Of a stretch of DNA of 64,000 bases, positions 15,129 through 21,853 are shown piece by piece. The notes under the pieces were generated by a model, which ran no database searches, had not been told where the DNA came from, and was given only the letters and a program-made list of their open reading frames with translations. The translations under genes were made by a program, and so were the position numbers. Position 1 is the stretch's first letter, and every line of letters starts with the position of its first letter. The stretch is from Natronosalvus halobius (lineage in GTDB: Archaea; Halobacteriota; Halobacteria; Halobacteriales; Natrialbaceae), in assembly GCF_024138145.1 (NCBI RefSeq), contig NZ_CP099997.1, forward strand, positions 806,001 through 870,000, in the 5' to 3' direction.

Positions 15129-15938
15129 ATGCCATCCAGTGATCCCCCCTACGAGAAATTGATCGAAAATGCTCCTATCGGCATCTTCCGGGTTCCGGTC
15201 GACGATATGGATCTCGAAGCTTCCGAGGTCGACCTAGAGAATCAGTACGCCAATCGGCGGCTCGCCAGAATGCTTTCTTTCGATTCGGTCGAACAGCTTC
15301 GCTCGGAAATTTCGTCCATCGAATACGCGGATCCACAGGACGCCGAGCGATTCGAAGAACAGCTCAAACGAACGGGTCGCGTGGACGCGTTCGAAACGCA
15401 ACTTCTCGGGAACGACGGCGAGACGATAGACGTACTCGTCTCTGGAACCGTCGACGATGGGGAGTTCATCGCCTACGTCACCGACATTTCCGAGCGGAAA
15501 CGACTCGAGCGGAAGACGGCCGAACAGGCCGAAGCGATTCTCGAACAGTCGACGCCGATCGTCGAAATCTGGGATTGCATCACGCTCGCAACTGTGGTCG
15601 GAACGCTGGATACGGCTCGCGCACAGCGGCTCACCGAGGAGTTGCTCACCGAACTCACGGAGAACGGGGCGGAGATTGCGCTGATCGACATCACCGGCGT
15701 TCCGAACGTGGACACGGCGACGGCACAGCACCTCACCGATACGGTAAACGCCGTATCGCTGCTGGGCAGCGAAGTCATCATCACCGGGATCAATCCCGAC
15801 ATCGCCCAGACGCTGGTCCAGCTCGGGATCACGATGGACGACATCCGAACCAGATCCACGTTGAGCGAGGGGCTGGAACTCGGACTGCACCTCACCCAGA
15901 ACATCGACATCGTGACGAATGCGTCTCAATCTACCTAA
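15129..15938 (+). CDS. rsbR: RsbR-like stressosome sensor/scaffold (PAS-STAS)
   Basis: A 269-residue protein. Residues of about 5-125 form a PAS-like sensory domain (YEKLIENAPIGIFRVP ... IAYVTDISERKRLERK), followed by a short helical linker and a C-terminal STAS domain that opens with STPIVEIWDCITLATVVGTLD, the hallmark of RsbR proteins. Two threonines, T196 in VPNVDTATAQHL and T228 in NPDIAQTLVQL, fall where the RsbT kinase phosphorylates Bacillus RsbRA (T171 and T205; alignment from memory). In bacteria RsbR forms the stressosome with RsbS. Bacillus RsbR has a globin-like N-terminus; here it is PAS, so the signal differs. First gene of a five-gene overlapping operon; rsbS starts 1 bp after its stop. 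Confidence 0.85.
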   Translation: MPSSDPPYEKLIENAPIGIFRVPVDDMDLEASEVDLENQYANRRLARMLSFDSVEQLRSEISSIEYADPQDAERFEEQLKRTGRVDAFETQLLGNDGETIDVLVSGTVDDGEFIAYVTDISERKRLERKTAEQAEAILEQSTPIVEIWDCITLATVVGTLDTARAQRLTEELLTELTENGAEIALIDITGVPNVDTATAQHLTDTVNAVSLLGSEVIITGINPDIAQTLVQLGITMDDIRTRSTLSEGLELGLHLTQNIDIVTNASQST

Positions 15939-15939
15939 C

Positions 15940-16314
15940 ATGACCCACACAGATCGCGTCACCGTTATCCAGGTGCGAGGAACGTTGATCGCGACCCTCC
16001 CCCCACACCCGTCGGACAGTACGATCGACGACCTCCAGGAACGCATTCTCGAGCGTATCAACCAGACGAACCTCGAACGTATCGAGGGAGTCGTGCTCGA
16101 TGTCTCCGACGTGCAAACGGTCGACTCGTTCTTCGCCCGGGTGATCGTCGAGACGGCGAAGATGGTCGAATTGATGGGCGTTCGACCGATTCTCGTCGGC
16201 ATCGGCCCCGCCATCGCCATCACGGTGACCGAACTCGGGTTCGACCTGGGTGGTGTGCAGACCGCCAGGAGTATCGATGCGGCGCTAGACGCCCTCGAGA
16301 TAGATTCGGGGTGA
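15940..16314 (+). CDS. rsbS: RsbS-like single-domain STAS stressosome protein
   Basis: A 124-residue STAS protein. The segment GVVLDVSDVQTVDSFFARVIV aligns with Bacillus RsbS around Ser59, so Ser63 here is the expected RsbT phosphorylation site; ILVGIGPAIAITVTELGFDL matches the second half of the RsbS fold. In bacteria unphosphorylated RsbS holds RsbT in the stressosome and releases it after phosphorylation. The ATG at 15940 lies 1 bp after the rsbR stop; an in-frame ATG at 15919 would overlap rsbR and add seven residues, which is less likely. The small size and lack of a sensor domain separate it from RsbR. Confidence 0.85.
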   Translation: MTHTDRVTVIQVRGTLIATLPPHPSDSTIDDLQERILERINQTNLERIEGVVLDVSDVQTVDSFFARVIVETAKMVELMGVRPILVGIGPAIAITVTELGFDLGGVQTARSIDAALDALEIDSG

Positions 16315-16745
16315 GTCACATGGTGAGCGAAGAAGGGGTCCTCGAGATCGCCTCTGAATCGGACATCGTCACCGCCAGGACCACGATTCGAAACGTCGCT
16401 TCGACCGCCGGCTTCGGGCTGACGGACACCACCCGGATCGTGACCGCTGTCTCCGAACTCGCCCGTAACATCTATCTCTATGCCGAAGTCGGGACGATGC
16501 GCTGGCGAGTCCGTTCGAAGGGGAGCCAGCGAGTCGTCGAGATCGTCTTCGACGACGATGGTCCAGGAATTTCGGACATCGATCGCGCCCTCGAAGAGGG
16601 GTACTCGACGTCGAGCGGAATGGGCCACGGCCTCTCCGGCGCCCAGAAGATGATGGACGAGTTCGAGATCGACACGAGTGCCGAAACGGGGACGACCGTC
16701 ACCATCCGCAAGTACGTGCCACGAGTGGTCGCCAATGACGGGTGA
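16311..16745 (+). CDS. rsbT: RsbT-like serine/threonine kinase (HATPase_c)
   Basis: Up to 144 residues, GHKL-fold ATPase of the anti-sigma/switch-kinase family. The N box is VSELARNIYLYAE, nearly identical to Bacillus RsbT; the G1 box is FDDDGPGISDID; and GYSTSSGMGHGLSGAQKMMDEF is the G2/lid region. In bacteria RsbT phosphorylates RsbS and RsbR, then is freed to bind its target phosphatase. The frame opens with GTG at 16311, overlapping the rsbS stop by 4 bp; an ATG at 16320 is the alternative. The C-terminus overlaps the next gene by 11 bp, so translation is coupled. ATP binding looks intact. Confidence 0.88.
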   Translation: MSHMVSEEGVLEIASESDIVTARTTIRNVASTAGFGLTDTTRIVTAVSELARNIYLYAEVGTMRWRVRSKGSQRVVEIVFDDDGPGISDIDRALEEGYSTSSGMGHGLSGAQKMMDEFEIDTSAETGTTVTIRKYVPRVVANDG

Positions 16746-17754
16746 CGACGAGGCGTCGATCCCGATTTCCAAACAGGCCGACGTCATCCTCGCCGGCCGC
16801 CGGGCGAAGCCGATCCTGGCAGCGTTCGAGCTGGACGAGTCGACCGTCGAAGAGGTCGTCCTCGTGATCCACGAACTGGCTTCGAACATCGTCAAACACG
16901 CCGGCGAAGGGACGATCACGCTCGTGCCCAAGTCGTCGGACGACTATCGCGGTATCGAGATTCACGCCGAGGACTCGGGGCCGGGAATCGGCGACGTCGA
17001 TCGAGCGATCGTCGACGGCTATTCGACGGTAGGAAGCCTGGGGTCCGGGCTCGGGGCAGTCGATCGGCTCATGGACGAATTCGAAGTCGTTCCTCGCCCC
17101 GACTCACACGCCGGCACGCACATCGTGGCCAAGCGCGATTTCCAGCCTCGAGCACGTTCCCAGAAACCGTTTCCGCTCACGTTCGGAGCGGCAACGCGTC
17201 CCCGGTCACGCGGCGATCCGAACGGCGACGCGTTCGTCATCAAACGGTGGGGAGACAATGCCCTCGTCGGCGTCATCGACGGATTGGGGCACGGACAGGA
17301 TGCCCACACCGCCGCGGCAGCGGCGAAACGGTACGTCACGGGCCACTTCGACCAGTCGCTCACCGCGATCTTTCGGGGCGTCGAACGGGTGTGTTCCAGG
17401 ACGCGCGGTGTCGTCATGGCGCTCGCTCGCTTCGACTGGACCAAAGAGACGATTTCCTACGCCAGCGTCGGCAACATCTCCCACAAGGTCGAGGCCCCGG
17501 TGCCGCTCCAGTTCGTGACGCGACGGGGAGTGCTCGGGAACGACGCACCGGAACCGCTGATCAGGGAAAACGAGTGGGATCCTGAGTACGCCCTGGCGCT
17601 GTATTCGGACGGTGTACGGTCGCTCTGGAAGTGGGACGAGTTCGTCCACCTCGTCGACGAGCCGAGTTCGACGCTCGCACACCGACTCCTGGCGGAGTTG
17701 GCGGACGAGAACGACGACGCAACCGTGCTGGTGGTTACGAGGGGATCACGATGA
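16735..17754 (+). CDS. RsbT-like kinase fused to RsbX-like PP2C phosphatase
   Basis: A 339-residue fusion. Residues 1-135 are a second GHKL ATPase with N box IHELASNIVKHA (about 45-56) and G1 box AEDSGPGIGDVD (about 79-90). Residues of about 145-336 are a SpoIIE/RsbX-type PP2C phosphatase with metal-binding VIDGLGHGQDAH (D182), YSDGVRSLW (D292) and ENDDATVLVV (D327/D328). Similar fusions occur beside rsbRST in bacterial modules, where the phosphatase part resets RsbR/RsbS phosphorylation. Combining both activities in one protein suggests both forward and reverse steps are controlled here. It overlaps rsbT by 11 bp upstream and the regulator gene by 4 bp downstream. Confidence 0.85.
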   Translation: MTGDDEASIPISKQADVILAGRRAKPILAAFELDESTVEEVVLVIHELASNIVKHAGEGTITLVPKSSDDYRGIEIHAEDSGPGIGDVDRAIVDGYSTVGSLGSGLGAVDRLMDEFEVVPRPDSHAGTHIVAKRDFQPRARSQKPFPLTFGAATRPRSRGDPNGDAFVIKRWGDNALVGVIDGLGHGQDAHTAAAAAKRYVTGHFDQSLTAIFRGVERVCSRTRGVVMALARFDWTKETISYASVGNISHKVEAPVPLQFVTRRGVLGNDAPEPLIRENEWDPEYALALYSDGVRSLWKWDEFVHLVDEPSSTLAHRLLAELADENDDATVLVVTRGSR

Positions 17755-20108
17755 GTGGCCAGGACGGTGACGAACAGCCCTCGGGCGCAGACCGGGACAT
17801 GATTCAGGCGCTGCAAGCGGAACTCAGGGAGACGAACGAGGGGCTCCTCGCGCTCACCCTCGAACGCGAGGAACACGAACGGACGCTGACGGCGCTCCAC
17901 GAGTCGAGCCGGGAACTGCTTCACGCCGAGACCGCCGAGGACGTGAGCGACCTGATCCTCGAGACGACGAACGAGGTCCTCGGTATTCCTGGCGTTGGGG
18001 TGTACTTCGCCAGCGAGGACGGAACCAGGCTCTCGCCGGCCGCGACGACCGAGTACGTCGAGAACAGGTTCGGATCCCTGTCACCCGTTATTCCCGACGA
18101 CGATTCGGTTGCGTGGCGATCGTTCGTCGAGCAAGAGACCATCGTGATGGACGACGGCATGACCGGTCGCGACGAGGGTCTCGAGGCAGCGTTTCCCAGC
18201 GGCATCTGGCTCCCGCTTGGCACCCACGGCGTCATGGTCGCCGTCTCCGACGGGATCAGGGTGTTCGACGCGGACAAACGCCAGCTCGCCGGGCTGCTCG
18301 CGGCCACCGCCGAAGCAGCCCTCGATCGGGTCGAACAGGAGAAACGGCGACGCCGGCGCGAAGCGCAACTCGAGGGGCTCGTCGAGGCGACGGGGGAGTT
18401 GCTCGGGGCTGAGACGGTACGAGAGGTCTGTGATACCGTGGTCGAGACCGCCGAAACGGCGCTCGGCCTCCCGATTACGATGATCGCGGTCTACGATAGC
18501 GAGACGGGAACGCTCAGACCACGCGCACAGACGGCGATGGCCGGAGCGGTCGTCGACGTGGAGCAGATGTTCGACCCGCAGGCCGAACTGGCGTGGCAAT
18601 CGTTCGCCGAGAAACGAGTGACGGTTCACGACGAGATGGCGGTCGTCCCCGATGCCGATGGAATCGACGCCGACACGTACGGCGTCGCGATTCTCCCGCT
18701 CGGGCGACACGGCGTGCTCGTCATCGGCTCGAGAACGACCGACGACGTTTACGACGAGCGACTATCACTCGCCCGGATACTGGCCGCGAGTACGGAACCG
18801 TCGCTGGCTCGTCTCCTGGCGACGAACGCCGAGTCCTCGCTCGATCGAGCCGAACGTGAACGACAACTCATCGAACGCGACGAACGCCTGCACGAACAGA
18901 ACGAACGGCTCACGCGTCTGAACCAGATCAACGACGTCATCCGTGACATCGATCAGGCGCTGGTGGCGGCGGATTCGCGAACGGCGATCGAACAGGCCGT
19001 CTGCACCCAGTTGACGACCGCGGGACCGTACACCTTCGCCTGGATCGGCGAGTACGACGCGGTGCACGACGCGGTGGCACCACAGGAGTGGGGAGGCGTC
19101 AACGATGGGTACCTCGATGCGATCGATCAACGGGGGGAAGCTGACTCGAGCGAACGGGGACCGACGGAACGGGCGAACGAGACACAGGAACCACAGGTGG
19201 TCGAGGACCTGCTCGGCGAGCCGCCACTCCCCCAGTGGCGCCGGGAGGCGCTCAAGCGCGGGTATCGCGCCTGTATCGCGATCCCGCTCGTGTATCGCGA
19301 GATGCGCTACGGCGTATTGACGGTGTATTCAGATCGACTCGAGACGTTCGGGGACCTGGAGCGAACCGTCCTGGTCGAACTCGGCGAGACCATCGCCTAC
19401 GCGATCAACGCCGTCGAGAGCAAGAAAGCGCTCGTGAGCGACGAGTTCGTCGAGCTCGAGTTCGAGATTCGGGACGACGCGATTCCGTTCCTCTCGGTGA
19501 CAGCCGACGTCGGTTGCGTCGTCGAACTCGAGAGCGTGGTCGCCCGATCCGATGGCGGCTACCGGGTCTTCTTCACCACCCACGGGACGCCGTCGGAGCC
19601 CGTCCTCGAGCACATGGAGCGAGCGTTCGCGGTGGACGGCACGCGGTTCATCTCGGAGACCGACGAGGAGTGTCTCTTCGAGTGTACGGTCGACGAGTCG
19701 AGTTTCTTCGGAACGCTCCTCGGTCACGGCGCCGTCCCCCAGCGATTCAGGGCGGAAGGCGGTGACGGAACCATCGTCGTTGCCCTCCCGGAGAGCGCGG
19801 ACGTTCGACTATTCATCGACACGATCCAGGCGACGTACGACCACTCGGAGTTGCTGGCGCGACGCGAACAGCCCCGAGACCGGGATCGACAGACGAAGAG
19901 CGGATTCGCGGCGGACATGGACGAGATACTGACCGACCGGCAGCGAGAGGTACTCCGGACCGCCTACGAGAGCGGATTCTTCGAGTCGCCACGCGAACGC
20001 ACCGGCAGCGAGATTAGCGACACACTCGGCGTCTCACAGCCGACGTTCAACAATCACCTCCGCGCCGCACAGCGAAAATTCTTCGAACTCGTCTTCGAAT
20101 CAGACTGA
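17751..20108 (+). CDS. Triple-GAF, Bat-type HTH-10 regulator (candidate stressosome output)
   Basis: A 785-residue protein. A coiled coil (about 15-55) precedes GAF domains at about 45-195, 215-385 and 425-565, each ending near a helical linker (for example LDRVEQEKRRRRREAQLE). Residues of about 575-705 match the N-terminal domain of bacterio-opsin-activator proteins, and the C-terminal 60 residues are an HTH-10 motif: LTDRQREVLRTAYESGFFE ... GVSQPTFNNHLRAAQRKFF. It should bind DNA and respond to ligands or partner proteins. The start overlaps the phosphatase stop (ATGA). Being the last gene of an rsbRST operon in an organism without sigma factors makes it the natural candidate target of the switch, which is inference. 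Confidence 0.88.
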   Translation: MSGQDGDEQPSGADRDMIQALQAELRETNEGLLALTLEREEHERTLTALHESSRELLHAETAEDVSDLILETTNEVLGIPGVGVYFASEDGTRLSPAATTEYVENRFGSLSPVIPDDDSVAWRSFVEQETIVMDDGMTGRDEGLEAAFPSGIWLPLGTHGVMVAVSDGIRVFDADKRQLAGLLAATAEAALDRVEQEKRRRRREAQLEGLVEATGELLGAETVREVCDTVVETAETALGLPITMIAVYDSETGTLRPRAQTAMAGAVVDVEQMFDPQAELAWQSFAEKRVTVHDEMAVVPDADGIDADTYGVAILPLGRHGVLVIGSRTTDDVYDERLSLARILAASTEPSLARLLATNAESSLDRAERERQLIERDERLHEQNERLTRLNQINDVIRDIDQALVAADSRTAIEQAVCTQLTTAGPYTFAWIGEYDAVHDAVAPQEWGGVNDGYLDAIDQRGEADSSERGPTERANETQEPQVVEDLLGEPPLPQWRREALKRGYRACIAIPLVYREMRYGVLTVYSDRLETFGDLERTVLVELGETIAYAINAVESKKALVSDEFVELEFEIRDDAIPFLSVTADVGCVVELESVVARSDGGYRVFFTTHGTPSEPVLEHMERAFAVDGTRFISETDEECLFECTVDESSFFGTLLGHGAVPQRFRAEGGDGTIVVALPESADVRLFIDTIQATYDHSELLARREQPRDRDRQTKSGFAADMDEILTDRQREVLRTAYESGFFESPRERTGSEISDTLGVSQPTFNNHLRAAQRKFFELVFESD

Positions 20109-20170: not shown

Positions 20171-20215
20171 CTACGCCCTCTTTTCCAGTAGAACTAGTAC
20201 GTATAATTGAATATC

Positions 20216-21853
20216 ATGACTGGAATAGCAAACGAACGCGACGCAGACGACGGGCGATCTACCGACTTCGAGCAGCTACCTGGCACCGAAACCGAAACCA
20301 AAACCGACACCCGCCGACCAGCAAGGCGGACGTTCGTGAAGGGTGCGGCCATTGCGGGTGTCTCTGCGATCGGTCTCTCTTCGAACGCTGCGGCATCGGG
20401 TTCGTACACCCAGTACGACGGCGAGTACCGACACGTCGTCAACGTCGTCGAGGCCGGCGCCGACAACACCGGGAACCGATCGATCACTCCCGTGCTCAAT
20501 CGCCTTCGGAACGATAACACGCTGTTTTACTTCCCACCTGGGCGCTACGCGATGGACAGCCAGTTCCGGTTCACGAAGTTCGACAACGTCGCCTTCGTCG
20601 GCAACGATGCGACGCTCGTCCCGGCGAACTACTACAACTTCGACGGCCCTCAGTACCGCCTCTTCCGCCTGGGAACGCTCTCCCGCCCCGGCAAGAAGCT
20701 TCGGTTCGAGGGATTCACGGTCGACCAGACCGCCAAGGATACTGGGATTCGGACGATCGACACGGTAGTCACCGACCGTCTCGACGTCGAGGACGTTCGC
20801 GTCAAGGGCGAACACGACAGCGGAACCATGGGCCCCGCGCGGTTCGATGTGATCGGGTCGAACGGGACCGGACGTGTCGTCGGTTTCAAGGCACCAGACG
20901 GCGGCAAGAATGCTGATGACACACCCCACGCGGGGAAGACGAGCTCGCGCGGCCCGATCGGCATCCTCGCGAACGGGACAGCGGGCGAACTGATGTTCAG
21001 GCGGTGTCACGTCGGCGGCTTCCCCGGGAGCGGCCTCTACGCGTGTAACGGCCCCGGAAAGATCATCGTCCACGGCGGCGTCTACCGGAACAGCACCTCC
21101 GCGAGCATCCGGATCGGCGGCGCGGACAGTGTCGTCAGGTGGCCCACCGTCGAAATCGACGACGTCGACGAGAAGTACCCCAGCCATCGTGGCATCCGCG
21201 TCGAGCGGGGCGACGTCACGATCAAGGGCGCCGCGATCCGCGTCAGCGACCCGAGTCCGAGCAATCACGCGATCTCCGTACTGAGCAACTGTGAGAGCGC
21301 CTGGATCGAGAACACGACGATCGAGATGAGCGGCAACGACGTCAACCACGGCATCGTCGTCTCTCCCGGCGCCGGCGAGACGACCATCGCCCGCACGAAC
21401 ATCACCCACAATGCCGCGGGGGGCTACCCGCTCTGGCTGCGCAGCTCCAACAACACGGACCGCGTCCACTGTGAGTACCTCTCCATCGACGGCGAAGCCG
21501 GCGACGCGAGCGGCCTCCGCGACGGAATTCGCTGTGAACGGCCTAACGTCCGGTTTGCCGCATGCGAGGTCGACCAGCGCGGTCGAGACGGCGTCAAACG
21601 CAACGCCATCGTCAGTACGAGCGAGGACCTCTCAGTGTGGAACATGACGCTCCGTGCCAGCCACTTCCCCATCGTCGAACTCGGATCCAATTCGAGCTAC
21701 CTCGAAGTCGACGCCGAGTCGTATAGCGGCCGTGAGGCGGCCTGTCTGTACGACCAGAGTCACAAGATCTCCATCCGTAACAGTCGACTGGTCAACGGCG
21801 TGCGCGACCTCGGCTCCTGGAGCCTCGAGCTGTCGAGCAACACCACCAGCTGA
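20216..21853 (+). CDS. Tat-exported right-handed beta-helix protein
   Basis: A 545-residue protein. A polar N-terminus precedes a twin-arginine signal: RRTFVKGAAIAGVSAIGLSS, cleaved near NAAASG. The mature part starts with VVNVVEAGADNTGNRSITP, characteristic of pectate-lyase-superfamily beta-helices, and continues with short repeating strands such as TIEMSGNDVNHGIVVSPGA. No catalytic residues of a known lyase are evident, so the substrate is not assigned. It is probably secreted or surface-associated and polysaccharide-binding or degrading. The ATG at 20216 is preferred to a TTG three codons earlier. It lies 107 bp downstream of the stressosome operon on the same strand and is a possible target. 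Confidence 0.75.
   Translation: MTGIANERDADDGRSTDFEQLPGTETETKTDTRRPARRTFVKGAAIAGVSAIGLSSNAAASGSYTQYDGEYRHVVNVVEAGADNTGNRSITPVLNRLRNDNTLFYFPPGRYAMDSQFRFTKFDNVAFVGNDATLVPANYYNFDGPQYRLFRLGTLSRPGKKLRFEGFTVDQTAKDTGIRTIDTVVTDRLDVEDVRVKGEHDSGTMGPARFDVIGSNGTGRVVGFKAPDGGKNADDTPHAGKTSSRGPIGILANGTAGELMFRRCHVGGFPGSGLYACNGPGKIIVHGGVYRNSTSASIRIGGADSVVRWPTVEIDDVDEKYPSHRGIRVERGDVTIKGAAIRVSDPSPSNHAISVLSNCESAWIENTTIEMSGNDVNHGIVVSPGAGETTIARTNITHNAAGGYPLWLRSSNNTDRVHCEYLSIDGEAGDASGLRDGIRCERPNVRFAACEVDQRGRDGVKRNAIVSTSEDLSVWNMTLRASHFPIVELGSNSSYLEVDAESYSGREAACLYDQSHKISIRNSRLVNGVRDLGSWSLELSSNTTS

Follow-up and report, generated by a model that had tools for sequence, protein, structure and literature searches.

The locus analysed here raises the question of how a stressosome could control transcription in an archaeon, where the switch would have to act without a sigma factor. 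The window, a stretch of 64,000 nucleotides from the haloarchaeon Natronosalvus halobius, was originally predicted to carry five closely spaced genes that make up a complete stressosome module, phosphatase included, with a Bat-type DNA-binding protein as the last product. Open reading frames, Pfam searches and sequence relatives in the PDB placed this operon on the + strand, with the predicted spacing, at 15129-20108, and all of its domains were supported by Pfam (Table 1). This locus allowed us to ask which parts of the module are likely to be active, how widely the arrangement is distributed, and where in the regulator a signal might enter.

Composition of the operon

The rsbR and rsbS genes are separated by 1 bp, and rsbS and rsbT by 5 bp if rsbT begins at the ATG at 16320 (an alternative GTG start at 16311 overlaps RsbS); the rsbT and fusion genes overlap by 11 bp, and the fusion and regulator genes by a 4-bp ATGA. 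The RsbR and RsbS chains of solved stressosomes were found as PDB sequence relatives of the first two products (E 1e-28 and E 6e-18, respectively), and the relatives of the phosphatase part of the fusion were of the RsbX/SpoIIE type. The fusion comprises a second RsbT-like HATPase domain at approximately residues 16-130 followed by the RsbX-like phosphatase at approximately residues 148-336. The assignment of RsbR as a YtvA-type LOV-STAS photoreceptor was rejected, as its full-length family score was 85 bits against a cut-off of 250 and the flavin Cys motif of LOV domains, NCRFLQ, is absent from the translation. Behind the operon, at 20207-21853, lies a gene whose translation suggests a right-handed beta-helix protein that is secreted by means of a signal of the twin-arginine type, and which could be a target.

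Table 1 Features of the stressosome operon in the window, with Pfam E-values.
Feature	Coordinates	Strand	Predicted product or role	Domain evidence
rsbR	15129..15938	+	RsbR-like sensor/scaffold	N-terminal PAS-like (PAS_9 7e-6, slightly below the PAS_9 cut-off) and C-terminal STAS (1.8e-13)
rsbS	15940..16314	+	RsbS-like single-STAS protein	STAS 9.8e-13
rsbT	16320..16745	+	RsbT-like switch kinase	HATPase_c_2 1.2e-10
kinase-phosphatase fusion	16735..17754	+	RsbT-like HATPase and RsbX-like SpoIIE/PP2C phosphatase	HATPase_c_2 3.7e-11; SpoIIE 3.9e-7
regulator	17751..20108	+	GAF-GAF-GAF-BAT-HTH_10 (Bat-type) DNA-binding protein, proposed output	GAF_2 in three stretches 6e-33; BAT 8e-44; HTH_10 4e-20
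stressosome-output element	17796..17900	+	Proposed docking/receiver helix, regulator residues 16-50, DMIQALQAELRETNEGLLALTLEREEHERTLTALH	

When the proteins were aligned with relatives from archaea and bacteria, RsbS kept the conserved serine S63 (VDSF) and RsbR kept both acceptor threonines, T189 in VDT and T228 in QT. Alignments likewise showed the N-box (SELARN) and the GPGI and GMGHGL boxes of RsbT to be intact, the N-box and G boxes of the fused HATPase to be kept, and the SpoIIE domain to retain the Asp motifs of its metal site (GD165, D182GLGHG, SD292G and D327D328). The roles of these acceptor and catalytic residues are established in the bacterial families, and because they are conserved here all parts of the module look active at the level of sequence.

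The whole genome contains two STAS domains, both within the operon, and one SpoIIE domain, that of the fusion; no STAS_2 protein and no separate RsbV-like STAS protein were found in it, and RsbU_N (PF08673) was not found by a search that detected it in B. subtilis, although at a genome completeness of 95% these absences are not absolute. With two STAS domains, no STAS_2, a single SpoIIE domain and no RsbU_N, this genome offers no Bacillus-like RsbU-RsbV-RsbW relay, and RsbR and RsbS are the only STAS substrates visible for the fusion phosphatase. Since neither RsbU_N nor an RsbV-like protein was found, direct control of the regulator by RsbT or by the fused kinase would be the simplest model.

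Distribution of the module and exchange of its output

RsbT relatives with E up to 1e-10 were present in 10 of the 392 genomes searched in the order and in 3 of the 125 in the family, every one of the latter in Natronosalvus, a genus sampled here by 8 genomes. All five genes recur in two other Natronosalvus species, where the proteins are 90-99% identical and the flanks unchanged, which excludes a chance arrangement; the gene order is thus found in 3 of the 8 genus genomes and is not peculiar to the strain in which it was predicted. A single-protein RsbS query against genome contigs returned no match, and an RsbT alignment query then gave matches. RsbS relatives were found in 29 of the 393 phylum genomes, an upper limit for the number with similar modules. 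In nearly all loci compared the genes for R, S, T and the phosphatase are consecutive, an order that recurs in other archaea and in bacteria; some loci had no visible SpoIIE gene (e.g., L082 and L089). One archaeal family has a split version of the fusion, such that RsbT, a separate second HATPase and a stand-alone SpoIIE protein are encoded consecutively (L092, L093, L096, L104 and L105), and Halobaculum halophilum carries a copy of the module on a plasmid (L107). Stressosome genes in archaea have already been reported (PMC9237108, PMC8942246), and the module, which also recurs across the phylum, is thus of a known kind; an archaeal stressosome is not new in itself, although its output here is unusual.

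This HTH_10 output occurred only in the three Natronosalvus species; the corresponding gene of other haloarchaea encodes a histidine kinase or a long PAS protein. The closest relatives of the operon, in genome G022 (L024) and in Halobaculum (L107), encode RsbT proteins about 72-75% identical to that of the window, and have a PAS histidine kinase together with a response regulator where the window has the HTH_10 protein. DNA similarity to these two loci stops inside the phosphatase gene, at 17482 and 17078, respectively, upstream of the output gene. In the RsbT tree the window and two further loci with HTH_10 outputs (L022 and L023) form one clade with the two histidine-kinase loci (SH-aLRT 98), within which the output differs and the N-terminal element described below is retained. 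Because most outputs are kinases, the simplest view is that the HTH_10 output represents the derived state. The best explanation of the operon is that the output of a haloarchaeal R-S-T-phosphatase stressosome was exchanged for a Bat-type DNA-binding regulator.

A shared element in stressosome outputs

The regulator carries, at residues 16-50, a coiled-coil-like element (EL..TN.G..AL..E) that also occurs in the outputs of numerous stressosome operons from bacteria and archaea, where it is N-terminal or lies in a linker. The window regulator has LQAELRETNEGLLALTLE and the kinase of genome G075 has LQTELEETNEGMVALTLE; the corresponding sequence in other archaea of the phylum is LSIELEKTNEGLIALYTE, in Deinococcus LNQELQDTNRGVVALYAE and in Anammoxibacter LEKELQETNEGLVALTLE. 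Eight residues (E, L, T, N, G, A, L and E) are invariant in an alignment of 14 rows, and by our own reading of the sequence leucines 21, 25, 32 and 35, with T28 between them, would be compatible with the heptad pattern of a coiled coil in which one core position is polar. Of 124 RsbT loci from several phyla, 28 have the element in the next gene, at its head or as a linker, and in the 27 loci that have both element and fusion it lies in the ORF directly after the fusion, on the same strand. The attached effectors are histidine kinases, GGDEF/EAL proteins, one SpoIIE phosphatase and small proteins of approximately 145-167 residues, and attachment to HTH_10 was found only in the genus of the window. 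Because the element stays while the effector is swapped, it is probably the site at which the switch acts.

To judge whether the element is more than an ordinary coiled coil, the full element model was searched over 392 haloarchaeal genomes, and six strong matches, in six genomes, were obtained (E 4e-17 to 2e-13, the next best being E 0.008), each in a gene directly behind rsbRST. As these six are training rows of the model or their close kin, the informative part of this result is that strong matches were found nowhere else in the 392 genomes; in the window's own genome the model matched the regulator only. An HMM built from five bacterial rows was also searched against 2617 archaeal ORFs (the window and 35 loci, which were chosen around rsbRST and each contain many other ORFs), and it matched only ORFs adjoining rsbRST, with the window regulator scoring only E 0.005. 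A text search of the accessible literature with the element sequence strings found no paper, which is weak evidence of novelty. The link that had been proposed between the module and the GAF-HTH regulator thus gains comparative evidence in the form of a shared N-terminal element, and we lean towards the view that the signal enters the regulator through this element.

Not every output behind such a module carries the element. Two haloarchaea (G168 and G367; loci L030 and L031) have rsbRST and the fusion followed by a PAS/GAF histidine kinase gene without it, three further loci (L109, L111 and L229) have RsbT and the fusion followed by a gene without it, and in Vibrio sp. THAF64 (L227), where the phosphatase is unfused, the output at L227:6846-10019 also lacks it. 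The N-terminus of that Vibrio output contains a stretch resembling a degenerate HATPase domain. Some bacterial outputs have two or three tandem copies of the element (L146, residues 21-130; L147 and L160, residues 17-77; L195). The small element proteins of approximately 145-167 residues were seen behind the fusion in members of the phylum outside the haloarchaea (L083:6896-7345, L086:6731-7234, L087:6638-7072 and L091:6654-7097). TLRG in the B. subtilis RsbU linker resembles the TNxG of the element; its G varies among other bacilli, however, and we therefore do not claim homology.

The element was present in 27 of 33 loci with the HATPase-SpoIIE fusion and in 1 of 91 without it, and among held-out loci in 8 of 10 with the fusion and 1 of 70 without. 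This raw correlation was set aside as proof because it is confounded by ancestry; a phylogeny-controlled test was not significant, there being approximately six label changes and too few independent pairs. Resting on approximately six changes, the association does not tell which HATPase docks. Several bacteria, including Deinococcus and Sphingomonas, and one archaeon have a further, third RsbT-like HATPase domain with the element attached behind it in cis (L108, L110, L115 and L100), which suggests that an RsbT-like fold touches the element and would apply equally to either of the window's two. A mechanistic analogue is known from B. subtilis, in which the target of RsbT is the RsbU linker, a coiled coil (PMC12143880). 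Our confidence in the identity of the docking kinase is lower than in the element as the entry point.

Proposed signal path and comparison with known systems

From the genes, domains, residues and conserved element observed here, we infer complex formation, phosphorylation, binding of the element and an effect on transcription as follows. RsbR and RsbS would form a STAS scaffold that holds RsbT, and possibly also the RsbT-like domain of the fusion. Once the PAS-like domain of RsbR senses a signal, RsbT would phosphorylate S63 of RsbS and T189 and T228 of RsbR and be released; the freed RsbT, or the HATPase domain of the fusion, would then bind the N-terminal element of the regulator and order or re-register its helix. 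This change would travel by way of the three GAF domains into the BAT-HTH_10 part and alter DNA binding, and the SpoIIE domain of the fusion would strip the phosphates and reset the scaffold. We give this model as a whole, from stressosome release and docking on the element to changed DNA binding and SpoIIE reset, a probability of roughly 0.6; the direction of signal flow, the DNA targets and any contact with TBP/TFB are presumptive. A point against the model is that the regulator, with its three GAF domains, may respond mainly to its own ligands.

An alternative scenario is that the regulator is controlled by Ser/Thr phosphorylation with no stable docking, in which case the element would be a transient recognition site or a dimerisation helix. 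RsbT-type proteins are, after all, protein kinases. Transient phosphorylation of a downstream protein has moreover been proposed in Vibrio vulnificus, in which RsbT-D1 binding was not seen (PMC9237108). We nevertheless regard this scenario as unlikely, given that polar residues of the element which are invariant across many unrelated effectors suggest a contact surface, and that no other region common to the histidine kinase, GGDEF/EAL and HTH_10 outputs was found that could serve as substrate. Less probable still is that the regulator is merely co-transcribed and set by GAF ligands, the stressosome signalling elsewhere or controlling only the amount of regulator. Both the abundance of GAF-containing HTH_10 proteins in Natronosalvus (11 to 16 matches to the regulator per near-complete genome) and the restriction of the HTH_10 output to one genus would fit such a reading; however, the sole element match of the genome is this very regulator, strong matches otherwise lie behind rsbRST, and the operon order is retained in three species. 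It is highly improbable that the fused HATPase is an RsbW/SpoIIAB-type inhibitor sequestering a sigma-region-4-like HTH_10 that is freed by an unphosphorylated STAS protein, for despite the weak similarity of HTH_10 to sigma70 region 4 (E 5e-4) and the best scores of the kinases being against SpoIIAB/RsbW models, though far below cut-offs, that fusion also stands ahead of outputs that lack HTH_10, namely histidine kinases and GGDEF/EAL proteins, and the N-terminal element is the common part.

We therefore favour docking on the element, and what is new here is an element common to stressosome outputs that suggests how the switch could reach archaeal transcription. More tentatively, and at slightly less than even odds, the element may be an undescribed portable receiver helix for bacterial and archaeal stressosome kinases, grafted here on an archaeal regulator such that the switch acts directly on TBP/TFB transcription with no sigma factor. 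RsbU_N was not found in most stressosome downstream proteins studied (PMC9237108). For the way in which such RsbU-less stressosomes signal, the shared element offers a testable answer across phyla; a true portable receiver helix would be the missing link for outputs without RsbU_N.

Short coiled-coil-like segments that occur in many types of signalling protein are known in the S-helix (PMC1592074), but that helix has a central ERT signature and relays signals between domains, whereas the element has TNxG, frequently stands at the N-terminus and, among haloarchaea, is restricted to genes next to stressosomes. The C-terminal GAF-BAT-HTH_10 part of the regulator is shared with haloarchaeal Bat/HTH_10 regulators (PMC5847659), whose N-terminal REC/PAS is replaced here by the element and extra GAF domains. 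With the RsbRST-RsbU-RsbVW-SigB system of B. subtilis the operon has in common the RST core and a coiled-coil output segment as the likely target of the switch kinase, yet it differs in that neither RsbU_N nor an RsbV-like protein was found in its genome and in ending in a single DNA-binding output rather than a sigma-factor cascade. The haloarchaeal histidine-kinase operons (L107; L024 of G022; G075; G354) share an RsbT 50-75% identical to that of the window, the fusion and an N-terminal ETNEG element, although their output is a PAS histidine kinase, accompanied in L107 and L024 by a response regulator, and not a GAF-BAT-HTH_10 protein. Similarly, the minimal rsbRSTX modules of Vibrio vulnificus and others (PMC9237108) have the same R-S-T-phosphatase gene set and order, conserved Ser/Thr acceptors and an output gene directly behind; in the window, however, the phosphatase is fused to a second HATPase, as also in Deinococcus, Sphingomonas, Streptomyces and others, and a DNA-binding protein of the archaeal HTH_10 type takes the place of a kinase, cyclase or phosphatase as output. 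With a single DNA-binding regulator as its archaeal output, the window offers a path from sensor to promoter that is testable with five genes.
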